Below are positions 31,739-62,753 of a DNA stretch of 64,000 nt, piece after piece. The first letter of the stretch is position 1, and every line of letters begins with the position of its first letter. The notes beneath the pieces were generated by a model. It searched no databases and was not told where the DNA came from. It worked only from the letters and a program-made list of their open reading frames with translations. Where the stretch lies: NCBI GenBank assembly GCA_016795155.1, contig JAEUIE010000050.1, positions 62,001-126,000 of the forward strand. The letters run 5' to 3'. Source of the DNA: Planctomycetia bacterium. Lineage in GTDB: Bacteria > Planctomycetota > Planctomycetia > Gemmatales > HRBIN36. Position numbers and translations under genes: made by a program.

Positions 31739-32641
31739 ATGAATCGTCGTCATTGGCTGAAGCAGACACTCGCTTTGGGTACCCTTGCTGCTGTCTCGCC
31801 TCATATAGTTGCTATCGATCCCATTGTTCGCAAGGGGCCGGCACAACTGAAGTTGAGCATCGCTGCCTACAGCTACCGCGATTACCTGACTGGCAAGAAG
31901 CAGCCCGCCATGACTCTCGATGGCTTTGTTGACCTCTGCGCGGAACTGGGTCTGCCCGCCGTGGAACTCACCAGTTATTACTTCAAAGATACCAGCACGG
32001 CGGCATTGACCAGATTGAAAGGCCGCTGCACGCGCTTGGGGCTCGATGTCAGTGGCGGTGCGGTAGGCAACAAGTTTACCGAAGCAGACCCGGCCAAACT
32101 GAAGGATGAGATTCGCAAAACAAAAGAATGGACCGAACGCTACTCCGTGCTGGGAGCCAAGGCCATTCGCATCTTCGCGGGCAATGCCATCAAAGGCGAA
32201 GAAGAGTCCGTTACCCGTGCCCGCTGTATGGAAGCGATTCAGGAAGTTTGCGAACACGCGTCGCAGTATGGCATTTACATGGCACTCGAAAATCATGGAG
32301 GGATTGTTACCACTGCCGAACAGTTGCTGGCCATCGTGCAGGCGATAAAACACGAATGGTTCGGAGTCAACCTCGACAGTGGCAACTTCCGCACCGTTGA
32401 TCCTTACGGAGATATTGCCAAGCTGGCCCCCTATGCAGTCAACGTTCAGTTCAAGACGGAAATCCAGGTGGCAGGCAAGAAAAAGGAACCCGCTGACATG
32501 AATAAGCTGGTCAACATCCTCAAGGAAGCTCGTTACCGTGGCTACGTAGCACTGGAATATGAAGCTGCAGCCGATCCACTGAAAGCCATTCCCGAACATA
32601 TTCAGCAACTGAAATCACTCTTCGCCGGCTGCAGTGGCTAG
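31739..32641 (+). CDS. Sugar phosphate isomerase/epimerase-like TIM barrel with Tat signal
   Basis: 300 residues. The N terminus MNRRHWLKQTLALGTLAAVS is a twin-arginine export signal. The AP-endonuclease-2/xylose-isomerase-like TIM barrel shows LCAELGLPAVELTSYY, KAIRIFAGNA, MALENHGGIVTTAEQLL, FGVNLDSGNF and VALEYEAAADP, whose acidic and His residues form the metal site of this superfamily. Such Tat-exported isomerase-like proteins are numerous in planctomycetes, and their substrates are mostly unknown. It is probably co-transcribed with the esterase upstream. A TACT-loop palindrome (32652-32701) starts 11 bases after its stop. Confidence 0.9.
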   Translation: MNRRHWLKQTLALGTLAAVSPHIVAIDPIVRKGPAQLKLSIAAYSYRDYLTGKKQPAMTLDGFVDLCAELGLPAVELTSYYFKDTSTAALTRLKGRCTRLGLDVSGGAVGNKFTEADPAKLKDEIRKTKEWTERYSVLGAKAIRIFAGNAIKGEEESVTRARCMEAIQEVCEHASQYGIYMALENHGGIVTTAEQLLAIVQAIKHEWFGVNLDSGNFRTVDPYGDIAKLAPYAVNVQFKTEIQVAGKKKEPADMNKLVNILKEARYRGYVALEYEAAADPLKAIPEHIQQLKSLFAGCSG

Positions 32642-32651
32642 AGCTACTTCA

Positions 32652-32701
32652 AGCTGTGGCAGGGTTATTCAGTACTCCGAATGACCCTGCAGGATGTGCA
32701 A
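32652..32701 (+). repeat. TACT-loop palindromic repeat, copy A
   Basis: The core at 32659-32690 folds as a 14-bp stem starting GCAGGGTTATTC, with loop TACT (32673-32676), one A/C mismatch and one T-G wobble. The 50-base unit matches 58991-59040 on the opposite strand at 47 of 50 positions. It lies in sense orientation 11 bases after the isomerase stop and 24 bases before the UvrC-like gene. Confidence 0.88.
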
Positions 32702-57321: not shown

Positions 57322-57339
57322 CGTGATATGTTATGAAAG

Positions 57340-57501
57340 TAGACGCGGCTTCCAGCCGCGTCAGCGAGAGATGAGCGCCCAAACCCAGTTCCAGCAATGA
57401 ATAATATTCCAGCGATCAGGAAAGCTAAGATCAACGTTGATTGACGCACACCTCAGCAGACGCGGCTGGAAGCCGCGTCTACTATCGCGGCTTTCAGCCG
57501 C
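57340..57501. repeat. Cluster of three GCGGCT palindromes, two in inverted orientation
   Basis: Hairpin 1: GACGCGGCT-TCC-AGCCGCGTC (57342-57362). Hairpin 2: AGACGCGGCT-GGA-AGCCGCGTCT (57458-57480). Hairpin 3: GCGGCT-TTC-AGCCGC (57487-57501). The 23 bases 57340-57362 and 57459-57481 are perfect reverse complements of each other, 96 bases apart. Confidence 0.85.
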
Positions 57502-58880: not shown

Positions 58881-58941
58881 GATGGCTCCCAAAAAAGGAA
58901 TCAGATTATTTCAAAAACACTCGAAATACTCGGCAGTTGTG

Positions 58942-58975
58942 GCACGGTTATGCATGTACTCATGCATGACCCTGC
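58942..58975 (+). repeat. TACT-loop palindromic repeat, copy D
   Basis: GCACGGTTATGCATG and CATGCATGACCCTGC pair over 15 positions with one C/C mismatch and one T-G wobble around the loop TACT (58957-58960). It points toward copy B, which begins 16 bases later on the opposite strand, so the two form a convergent doublet between ridA and purL. Confidence 0.82.
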
Positions 58976-58990
58976 GAAACTACTGAGTCA

Positions 58991-59040
58991 TTGCATATCC
59001 AGCAGGGTCATTCGGAGTACCGAATAACCCTGCCACAGCT
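58991..59040 (-). repeat. TACT-loop palindromic repeat, copy B
   Basis: Reverse-complement copy of 32652-32701 with 47 of 50 identical bases. On the minus strand the core is a 14-bp stem around TACT with one T-G wobble. It starts one base after the purL stop, in sense with purL. The two copies share the long flank AGCTGTGGCAGGGTTATTC. Confidence 0.88.
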
Positions 59041-59041
59041 T

Positions 59042-61936
59042 TCAGCAGGCGCGCAGGGTATTTTGCCAAGCTGCTTTCAGCTCATCAATGCCCACGTTCA
59101 CCAGCAGCGTATCCGAAGGCGAACCAAAAATGGTCAGCCTCCGTTGATCGGAAACCTGGCCGATGCAGGCACAGGGCAAGTCTCCCATCAGGATACTCAG
59201 GCTCCGTTCCCATTCAAATGGAACTTCCAGCAGAAACCGTGTCGGGCTTTCGCCAAAGAGCAGTGCTTCCAGCGAAGGCGTGTCGCTGCCTTCCACCGGA
59301 ATGGCATTCGTATGTACAATCGCGCCGAATCCGCCAGCCATGCACATTTCAGCGAGGGCCACAGCCAGACCACCTTCGGAAAGATCATGGCAGGCTGCAA
59401 CCATCCGGTGACGGATAGCATCGTGTACCTTCAGCATCATCAGTGGTGCCTGTTCCAGATTGACCTTGGGCACGCTGTTCGATGCCATGCGATGTATCTG
59501 ATGATAATGCGAACCGCCCAGTTCTTCGCGGGTAGTTCCCACCAGATAGAGCTTGTGGCCAGGCTTCTTCAAATCCATGGTTACGCAGCGGGTGACATCC
59601 TGCACTTTACCCAGCGCGGTGATGAGCAGCGTGGGCGGAATGACAATGCGGGTGCCATCAGCACCCTGATATTCGTTCTTGAGGCTATCTTTGCCGCTGA
59701 TAAACGGAACGCCGTAAGCCAGTGCTGCATCGCGGCAACCTTCCGCAGCACGAACCAGTGCACCCAGCACTTCAGGGCGATCAGTGTTGCCCCAGCAGAA
59801 GTTATCGAGCACCGCAGTCTGCTTGGGATCAGCCCCCACGCAAACGACATTGCGAACCGCTTCATCCACCGCAGCCAGTGCCATGTAGTAGGGATCGAGA
59901 TCGCCAAACTGCGGACAAAGTCCACAACCCACCGCCAGGCCAGCAACTGATCCATGCACCGGAGCAATCACCGATGCATCGCCCGGGCCATCGTGATGCA
60001 TACCCACCAGCGGCTTGATGACACTGCCACCCTGAACTTCATGATCGTATTGCCGAATGATCGCTTCTTTGCTCGCAATAGTCGGATGGCTGAGCAGCGT
60101 GAGCAGGTCGCTCGTGAAATCCAGCACGGTACGCTGGGCCGTGAGTTCCCTGATGGCCGGTGGCGACCAGGTGGCCTGCTTGATGATCGGTGGCCTGCCA
60201 TCGTGCAGGAAGTGCATGTCGAGCATGCCAACCTGTTGTCCGTGATAGAAGAGTTCCAGCTTGCCGGTGTTCTTGAATTCGCCGAGCACCACCGCTTCGA
60301 CATTCTCACTGTGGCAGAGCTTTTCCATTTCGCTCCAGTTTTCGGGTGGCACCGCCAGCACCATCCGTTCCTGGGCTTCGCTGATCCAGATTTCGGTGTA
60401 GCTCAGCCCAGAATATTTGAGCGGTGCCCGCTCCAGGTGCACCACCGCACCCAGGTCAGCGCCCATTTCGCCCACGGCGCTCGAAAAGCCTCCAGCGCCG
60501 CAATCGGTCACTGCTCGATACAGATTGCGATCACGAGCCACCAGCAGCACATCGAGCAGCATTTTTTCGGTGATGGCATTGCCAATCTGCACCGCGCCGC
60601 CGGAAACTTTGTCCGATTGATCGGTCAGTTCCGCTGAAGAAAAAGTAGCACCGTGAATACCATCGCGACCAGTACGCCCACCTATCGCCACAATCAGGTC
60701 GCCCGGCTTGGCCGCTTTGCTCTCCATACCAACCGGTATCAGCCCAATGGTGCCGCAGAAAACAAGCGGGTTGCCCAGGTACCGTTCATCGAAATGCACT
60801 GCACCATTGACGGTGGCAATGCCCATGCGGTTGCCATAATCGCGCACGCCGCTCACCACCCCCTGCATGACCTGCCGCGGAGGCAACACACCCGGCGGCA
60901 ACTTCTCATCAGGATAATCAGGTGGGGCGAAGCAGAACACATCAGTGTTCGCTACCGGCTTGCCACCCAGGCCCGTGCCAAGCACATCGCGAATCACGCC
61001 ACCAATGCCTGTGCTCGCGCCGCCGTACGGCTCAATGGCCGACGGGCGGTTGTGCGTTTCCACCTTGATGCAGGCATGAAACTGTTCATGGAACTTCACG
61101 ATACCGGCATTATCGACAAAGACGCTGACGCACCAATCGTTCCCCCCCAACTTGTGCCTTATTTCCTGCGTCGCGGCGAAGATGGTTTGCTTGAGCAGAT
61201 TTTCATAACGCCGCGTGCTGCCATCGACTGCAGTAAAGACAATCCGCCCTTTCAACGTCTTGTGCGAACAATGCTCCGACCAGGTTTGGGCAATCGTTTC
61301 CAGTTCGATATCCGTCGGGTCGCGGTCCAACGACTGAAAATGCTGTTGAACCGTCTGCATTTCTTCCAGCGTCAACGCCAGCTGGCCTTTGCGACTGACC
61401 TCGATGAGCTGGGCATCCGTCATCGTTCGCATGTGAATGCTGGTACGATGGAACGTGTATGATGAACCAGCAGCTTTCCACTGGCTTTCCGGCAATGGAC
61501 CATAAATGCCTTGTTCGATAGCATCGTTGGCAACCCATGATTGTGCCTTCTTAGCCAGTGCCTGTTGTTCCGGTGAAAAGCGGAAACGCATACCCGAGCG
61601 CACCTGAACACGAGGCAGCCCCAACTGAGTAACCGCAAACTCCACGCTGGCAGCAGCAGGGTCCATCACGCCAGGCTTGGGCAACACGGTCAGCGTGCTG
61701 ACGGCATGGCTTTTTGCAGGCGGGCTGATGATGGCGGATTCCACGGTCGTATCGGTCAACAGCCTGTCTGTTACTTTGCGAATGCCATCCTGATCGAGAC
61801 CGCTTACCAGGAAGATGCGGCTGGAATAAATTTCACCCGGGTCTGTTCCGGTTTTCTCACGCAGCAGGCTGGCCAGTTGTCGTGCTGCTGAGTCATCCTC
61901 GCGAAGCCTGGAGGAAACTTCAACTTCCCAGAGCAT
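59042..61936 (-). CDS. purL: Phosphoribosylformylglycinamidine synthase, PurS-PurL fusion type
   Basis: 964 residues from ATG 61936; ATG 61957 would add 7 residues. The first 80 residues (LWEVEVSSRLREDDSAARQ, LVSGLDQDG) look like the small PurS subunit fused in front. The synthetase core has SEHCSHKTLKGRI, KVETHNRPSAIEPYGGASTGIGGVIRD, TDCGAGGFSSAVGEMGADLG, FISGKDSLKNEY and CHDLSEGGLAVALAEM. It converts FGAR to FGAM using ammonia from a separate glutaminase (PurQ), which is not in the window. Its start overlaps the end of tyrA, and a palindrome (copy B) follows its stop. Confidence 0.95.
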   Translation of the reverse strand: MLWEVEVSSRLREDDSAARQLASLLREKTGTDPGEIYSSRIFLVSGLDQDGIRKVTDRLLTDTTVESAIISPPAKSHAVSTLTVLPKPGVMDPAAASVEFAVTQLGLPRVQVRSGMRFRFSPEQQALAKKAQSWVANDAIEQGIYGPLPESQWKAAGSSYTFHRTSIHMRTMTDAQLIEVSRKGQLALTLEEMQTVQQHFQSLDRDPTDIELETIAQTWSEHCSHKTLKGRIVFTAVDGSTRRYENLLKQTIFAATQEIRHKLGGNDWCVSVFVDNAGIVKFHEQFHACIKVETHNRPSAIEPYGGASTGIGGVIRDVLGTGLGGKPVANTDVFCFAPPDYPDEKLPPGVLPPRQVMQGVVSGVRDYGNRMGIATVNGAVHFDERYLGNPLVFCGTIGLIPVGMESKAAKPGDLIVAIGGRTGRDGIHGATFSSAELTDQSDKVSGGAVQIGNAITEKMLLDVLLVARDRNLYRAVTDCGAGGFSSAVGEMGADLGAVVHLERAPLKYSGLSYTEIWISEAQERMVLAVPPENWSEMEKLCHSENVEAVVLGEFKNTGKLELFYHGQQVGMLDMHFLHDGRPPIIKQATWSPPAIRELTAQRTVLDFTSDLLTLLSHPTIASKEAIIRQYDHEVQGGSVIKPLVGMHHDGPGDASVIAPVHGSVAGLAVGCGLCPQFGDLDPYYMALAAVDEAVRNVVCVGADPKQTAVLDNFCWGNTDRPEVLGALVRAAEGCRDAALAYGVPFISGKDSLKNEYQGADGTRIVIPPTLLITALGKVQDVTRCVTMDLKKPGHKLYLVGTTREELGGSHYHQIHRMASNSVPKVNLEQAPLMMLKVHDAIRHRMVAACHDLSEGGLAVALAEMCMAGGFGAIVHTNAIPVEGSDTPSLEALLFGESPTRFLLEVPFEWERSLSILMGDLPCACIGQVSDQRRLTIFGSPSDTLLVNVGIDELKAAWQNTLRAC

Positions 61937-62753
61937 GGTGAACCTTTCTTCCTTCATGGAACAATTGATTCAGTTCGCAGGCGTTTCCGTTTTCGAGCGC
62001 CTGTTGAAAGCGTGCCAGCCATTGCTGCAACTGGTTCACGCCCGTTTGCAGATGTTGCCTGTTGCTCATGACAATGGCAGTCCACATAGTCGGGTCGCCA
62101 CCAGCCAACCGGGTCATGGAACGCAGGCCGGTGCCACTGTAGGGCATGTGTTCTTCAGTGATGATGCCCGCCAGGGCAAAGGAGGCAATGTGAGGCAGGT
62201 GGCTGGTCATAGCCATGATGGCATCGTGTTCGACAGCGTTGATCTCGACCACCTTGCTGCCCAGGTTTTGCCACAAATCAGTCAGGAGTTTGAGAGTCGA
62301 GCTGCTGGAAAAATCGGTTGGTGTCAGAAACATCAGCCTGTTTTGAAATAGTGATGATGATGCATGTTCCGGTCCGCTTTTTTCTGATCCCGCCAAAGGA
62401 TGTCCACCAACAAATCGCTTGGCATACGTCCAGGAACGATCAATCGCAGCAACAATGTCTGCCTTGGTGCTACCAACATCACTTACTACCAGTTTGGGAA
62501 ACCGCTCAAGCAATGTGATGGCAAGAGGAACTACCGAATCGACCGGCGTGCACACAATAGCCAGCGTGGCTTGTTCAAGAGTTTGAGGGAACTCCAGGTA
62601 GCCTTCATCAATCATGCCTCGCTGCTGGGCTATAGTCAGCGATTCACAACTTCGTGAGATGCCGATAATCCTGTGTGCCAGTTTGCGTTCTTTCACCGCA
62701 AGAGCGAGCGAACCGCCCAGTAGACCCACCCCCACAATTGCCAGCGTATCCAT
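61920..62753 (-). CDS. tyrA: Prephenate dehydrogenase family protein
   Basis: 277 residues from ATG 62753; a second ATG is three bases upstream. The N-terminal NAD-binding fold is TLAIVGVGLLGGSLALAVKERKL. Catalytic-domain motifs are VVSDVGSTKADIVAAIDRSW, FVGGHPLAGSEKSGPEHAS and AIMAMTSHLPHIASFALAG. TyrA-type enzymes oxidise prephenate or arogenate toward tyrosine; which substrate is preferred is not visible. The last 17 bases overlap the start of purL. Divergent from the MuiA-like gene. Confidence 0.93.
   Translation of the reverse strand: MDTLAIVGVGLLGGSLALAVKERKLAHRIIGISRSCESLTIAQQRGMIDEGYLEFPQTLEQATLAIVCTPVDSVVPLAITLLERFPKLVVSDVGSTKADIVAAIDRSWTYAKRFVGGHPLAGSEKSGPEHASSSLFQNRLMFLTPTDFSSSSTLKLLTDLWQNLGSKVVEINAVEHDAIMAMTSHLPHIASFALAGIITEEHMPYSGTGLRSMTRLAGGDPTMWTAIVMSNRQHLQTGVNQLQQWLARFQQALENGNACELNQLFHEGRKVHHALGS

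Follow-up and report, generated by a model that had tools for sequence, protein, structure and literature searches.

Hairpins at the locus

The window, that is, the whole 64-kb stretch of DNA that was analysed, carries two nearly identical hairpins downstream of unrelated genes. One lies 14 nt past the stop codon of a TIM-barrel (AP_endonuc_2) gene at 31739-32641 and the other 5 nt past the stop codon of purL, both in sense orientation. When positions 32652-32701 were compared with the minus strand of 58991-59040, 47 of 50 positions were identical, versus 8-14 of 50 at shifted offsets, and both 50-base stretches form a stem of about 14 bp closed by G-TACT-C. An earlier note on this DNA had described near-identical copies with 14-bp stems and TACT loops, placed in sense right after a stop codon; all of this was borne out, with a similarity far above chance. 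The features of the locus are listed below.

32656..32690 (C50:94656-94690), plus strand: copy A, a Y-arm singlet REP (half of a REPIN) with a GTGG foot, a stem of about 13-14 bp and a TACT loop
48123..48157, plus strand: copy D, a hairpin of another family with a GGTGCC foot and a TACT loop
58419-58892, minus strand: gene beyond purL and the REPIN
58939..59036, minus strand: complete 98-bp REPIN, made up of copies B and C, between purL and the next minus-strand gene
58939..58975, plus strand: copy C, the Z-arm REP of this REPIN, inverted relative to copy B
59002..59036, minus strand: copy B, the Y-arm REP of this REPIN
59042-61957, minus strand: purL, with the REPIN adjoining its stop side

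Folded as single-stranded DNA, the window elements were far better than shuffled sequences (z about -5 and -6.6; -6.55 for the REPIN at 58939..59036). Copies C and D had previously been taken for stem-changed copies of the same family. The TACT loop is indeed kept in both, but they are not separate copies of one family: copy C is the second arm of copy B's own doublet of about 98 bp, and copy D is a member of a different family. The earlier reading caught only half an element and missed the two-hairpin REPIN unit.

The family of copy D, GGTGCCACGGTTTGCGTG-TACT-CACGCTAACCGTG, has 39 copies in the genome, and around each of them conservation extends over roughly 130 bp. The upper stem and loop of copy D, TTGCGTG-TACT-CACGCTA, recur in a repeat beside a RAYT-like gene at C44:144253, and its family is therefore regarded as separate from copies A-C with the loop in common. 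Four palindromes at 57338-57501 of the window, mostly GTAG-footed (GTAGACGCGGCTTCCAGCCGCG type), represent a further separate REP-like family, of which seven copies were found in the 684 kb of genome examined.

Anatomy and placement of the genome-wide family

The genome (5.28 Mb in 68 contigs, assembly 97% complete) was searched with the 24-nt core GGTTATTCNGTACTCNGAATRACC, allowing up to 3 mismatches, and with the reversed pattern as a control. The earlier note had proposed looking for further copies, and these exist: 27 Y arms were found versus none in the control, and 16 of the 27 matched the 24-nt query exactly. A loose grammar, GTGGCA-N7..12-TACT-N7..12-TGC, gave 60 matches versus 5 in the control. 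The Z arm was found independently 21 times, with none in the controls. Arm Y reads GTGGCAGGGTTATTCGG-TACT-CCGAATGACCCTGC, and arm Z, inverted relative to it, reads GTGGCAGGGTTATGCATG-TACT-CATGCATGACCCTGC. In an alignment of the 27 copies the Y arm was paired with an inverted Z arm in 23, in the order GTGG foot, hairpin Y, linker of about 30 nt, inverted hairpin Z and CCAC. The length from foot to foot was mostly 97-99 bp, and 86 bp in two copies that had lost the Z loop. All 26 Y arms examined had the GTGG foot, and sequence conservation fell off sharply about 4 nt beyond it. With about 30 units the family is small for REPs. In some copies (L006, L024) a GAGYCTGTTGA-like sequence was present about 17 nt beyond the foot on both sides.

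The outermost 13 bp or so of the doublet are inverted repeats. This would also be expected of a MITE of a DDE-type insertion sequence, in which GTGGCAGGGTTAT...ATAACCCTGCCAC would be terminal inverted repeats and cleavage would be of double-stranded DNA, and the outer GAGYCTGTTGA-like sequence on both sides of the two copies named above agrees with it. Each arm, however, forms a hairpin of its own whose loop is constant, and inspection of the flanks by eye revealed no consistent target duplication. Moreover, only 2 of 5 genome matches of GAGYCTGTTGAA were at these elements, so the outer pattern is mostly unrelated to them, and the genome has a RAYT with sister elements (see below). A search for a MITE with outer GAGYCTGTTGA ends gave no support for one, and a MITE is considered very improbable.

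The earlier note had stated that the stems change while pairing survives, and compensatory changes were found in 31 distinct REPs. In these, 93% of the stem positions were paired, a value biased upward because the REPs had been retained for at least 78% stem pairing, as compared with 56% (at most 62% in 2000 shuffles) when the arms were shuffled. For this test the base triplet was left out and the 3' arms were shuffled within each position; REPs not retained for lack of pairing were chance matches of the pattern. As the pattern fixes foot, loop and base, the covariation speaks to the middle of the stem only. At individual stem positions as many as four or more kinds of canonical pair occurred, and this variety is stronger evidence than the paired percentage. 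The note had offered selection on structure or spread as hairpins as explanations, and the evidence fits both.

Gene context was obtained from loci of 3 kb with a gene finder based on hexamers, which had been trained on the genome itself. Although only 12.7% of the genome is intergenic, 26 of the 27 copies did not overlap a predicted gene and none was inside one (p ~1e-22). Eighteen copies were in tandem intergenic sites, where the Y arm ran in the sense of the upstream gene 14 times and antisense to it 4 times (p = 0.03); the remaining ones of the 26 with assigned context lay between convergent (7) or divergent (1) genes. Of 26 copies, 21 had a stop codon on the Y side, and the copies were mostly within some tens of nucleotides past it. 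Orientation relative to stop codons, which the earlier note had suggested recording, is thus non-random, and the strand bias of the Y arm is modest. Replication strand was considered as the driver of orientation and was rejected, as the strand with the Y arm was the locally more G-rich one in 12 of 27 copies. The placement fits tolerance of insertion past gene ends.

Position shortly past stop codons, a Y arm usually in sense and a single copy out of 26 between divergent genes are also what RNA elements would produce, i.e., intrinsic terminators or hairpins stabilising mRNA 3' ends that are selected at gene ends and not mobile; E. coli REPs have a reported role in gene expression (PMC8266576). 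A U-tract terminator signature was looked for after the stems and none was found, and the window hairpins had no match above the gathering score among the Rfam covariance models. The clustering past stop codons also follows from avoidance of genes and promoters. In addition, the near-identical arms at unrelated genes argue for copying rather than convergence, and the family was restricted to this genome among 61 searched. We consider RNA elements of this kind highly unlikely.

RAYT genes and the TACT loop

No RAYT is encoded within the 64-kb window, as the earlier note had said. In the genome there are seven Y1_Tnp matches, and the RAYT/Y1 transposase that it proposed to seek is present on another contig, C32, between two REPINs of like design. 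The relevant genes are:

C32:35473-36018 (L086): RAYT; NF047646 REP_Tyr_transpos (NCBIfam) with 91.1 bits, cut-off 80
C44:144253: RAYT-like gene related to the C32 RAYT (41% identity), beside hairpins
C22:103269-103766 (L087): RAYT-like gene (44% identity) with one in-frame stop, beside hairpins
C10:57117: RAYT remnant beside hairpins

The C32 RAYT is intact and carries HuH, WQ and YIHNNP motifs; it matched PF01797 with 23.6 bits (cut-off 23), and its best PDB match was 4er8, TnpA-REP. Both of its sides are occupied by REPINs of the form GTGGCACTG...[TACT]...CAGTGC with inverted partners. These have the foot, the loop, the basal GCA/TGC pairs and the paired plan in common with the window family, but the stem differs (GCACTG). 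GCACTG doublets are also dispersed elsewhere in the genome.

Several further repeats were observed near such genes. Palindromes of the type GGTGCCATGCCCACC flank the interrupted gene on C22 and also occur near the C32 RAYT. A RAYT-like gene with 30% identity (L089, C5:109985-110314) has long ACGATACAATCGTGACCCAC hairpins alongside and is a candidate for a further system. A Y1_Tnp gene (L033, C23:57911-58132) has a GTAG-type repeat of its own, AGTCATCACTCGGAGAGTGATGACTACTAT, on its flanks, which indicates that the genome holds several REP systems.

The window family was also looked for in 60 related genomes, none of the same genus, and only background counts of the grammar were obtained, with the exception of G053. 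The latter contains at least six REPs of its own type, GTGGCACGCCCTGAGG-TACT, one of which adjoins a RAYT with 47% identity. Relatives of the RAYT were found with an alignment as the query, while a single RAYT protein as the query found none; the 80 named loci are nearly all planctomycete, and it is by these nearest named relatives of its RAYT that the genome is called planctomycete-like. TACT-loop hairpins were present within 450 bp of 8 of these RAYTs. Of the 235 hairpins with four-base loops within this distance, 20 had TACT, whereas farther from RAYTs TACT was not among the 15 commonest loops of 159 hairpins; this count is independent of the filter for at least 78% pairing. An origin of the TACT loops in one clade was considered and rejected, as they were scattered on the RAYT tree, with 9 changes for 12 rows. 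The clustering was weak (5 of 500 shuffles were as low). Given the scatter, the loop either was ancestral, with frequent losses, or has re-evolved.

Divergent planctomycete RAYTs may make repeated use of one recognition code, a TACT tetraloop together with a GTG[GC]C foot, with the stem nearly free; we regard this as a rather unlikely generalisation. If true, a single RAYT could mobilise several REPIN families in trans, that of the window among them, and the usual rule of one RAYT for one REP would be broken.

Interpretation and comparison with known systems

The hairpins are best explained, with a probability of about 0.88, as REPs of a REPIN of about 98 bp that is spread as single-stranded DNA by a RAYT, likely the enzyme encoded on C32. 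The REPIN, a presumably mobile and non-autonomous element, would be formed by REP Y followed by REP Z in inverted orientation. The RAYT (TnpA-REP, a HuH tyrosine transposase) would recognise the GTGG foot and the stem-loop, cut and join next to them and so allow the folded single strand to spread. The C32 RAYT, placed between two REPINs of like design, is the likely present-day enzyme; alternatively, the role may have been played by a close relative of it that this genome has lost or whose gene is unassembled. No RAYT in this genome is flanked by the exact window stem (GGGTTAT...), so that we can only infer which enzyme moves the window family. The weak likeness of the flanks out to about -16 (GAGYCTGTTGA-like) was counted against this explanation, as was the small number of units.

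The missing link between a RAYT and window-type stems would be accounted for if the REPINs were an orphan population, i.e., relics whose cognate RAYT is either gone from the genome or missing from the assembly. As to the family this is a sub-case of the RAYT-spread REPIN explanation, and it departs from it as to the enzyme. The interrupted RAYT at C22:103269, the remnant at C10:57117 and an assembly that is 97% complete in 68 contigs are in line with it. On the other hand, the identity of 16 of 27 Y arms to the 24-nt query suggests fairly recent copying, and the C32 RAYT is intact, with REPs that have the foot, the basal GCA/TGC pairs and the loop in common with the window family. An orphan population is therefore possible but somewhat doubtful.

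REPs described in the literature carry a GT[AG]G foot and are arranged as inverted doublets, with REPs on either side of the tnpA-REP genes (PMC6006769, PMC8266576, PMC3116915). A REP usually matches its own RAYT (PMC6006769), and in the S. maltophilia system cleavage depends on a loop base and the foot (PMC8266576). The REPINs or BIMEs with RAYT of Pseudomonas and Escherichia resemble the window family in the GT[AG]G foot, the hairpin REP, the extragenic scatter, the REP-flanked RAYT gene and the inverted doublets of two REP types, comparable to Y and Z. The window family differs from them in its planctomycete-like host, the almost invariant G-TACT-C loop, the low copy number, the nearly perfect stems of about 13-15 bp and a stem that is not found beside a RAYT. 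The main text on the GTAG-tagged REP superfamily (Di Nocera et al. 2013, PMC3733652) describes GTAG-type REPs in the PVC superphylum and a variant GTGG foot in Opitutus terrae (GTAG-20), as in the present hosts and foot; TACT is absent from that main text. REPs adjacent to other planctomycete RAYTs (L171, L179, L181, L194, L201, L217, L220, G053, G046) likewise have a TACT loop and mostly a GTGG or GTGC foot, but their stem sequences are unrelated to the window family.

It is well supported that the element represents a new REP/REPIN lineage in a planctomycete-like genome, while the kind of element is well known. A REP/RAYT system with clear anatomy is thereby extended to such a genome. To our knowledge, only a few proteobacterial systems have been used in experiments on the REP part that a RAYT reads. 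The point of wider interest is the combination of a fixed foot and loop with free stems: in these natural sets foot and loop are constant and the stems vary, and the question of which REP part a RAYT reads becomes testable.
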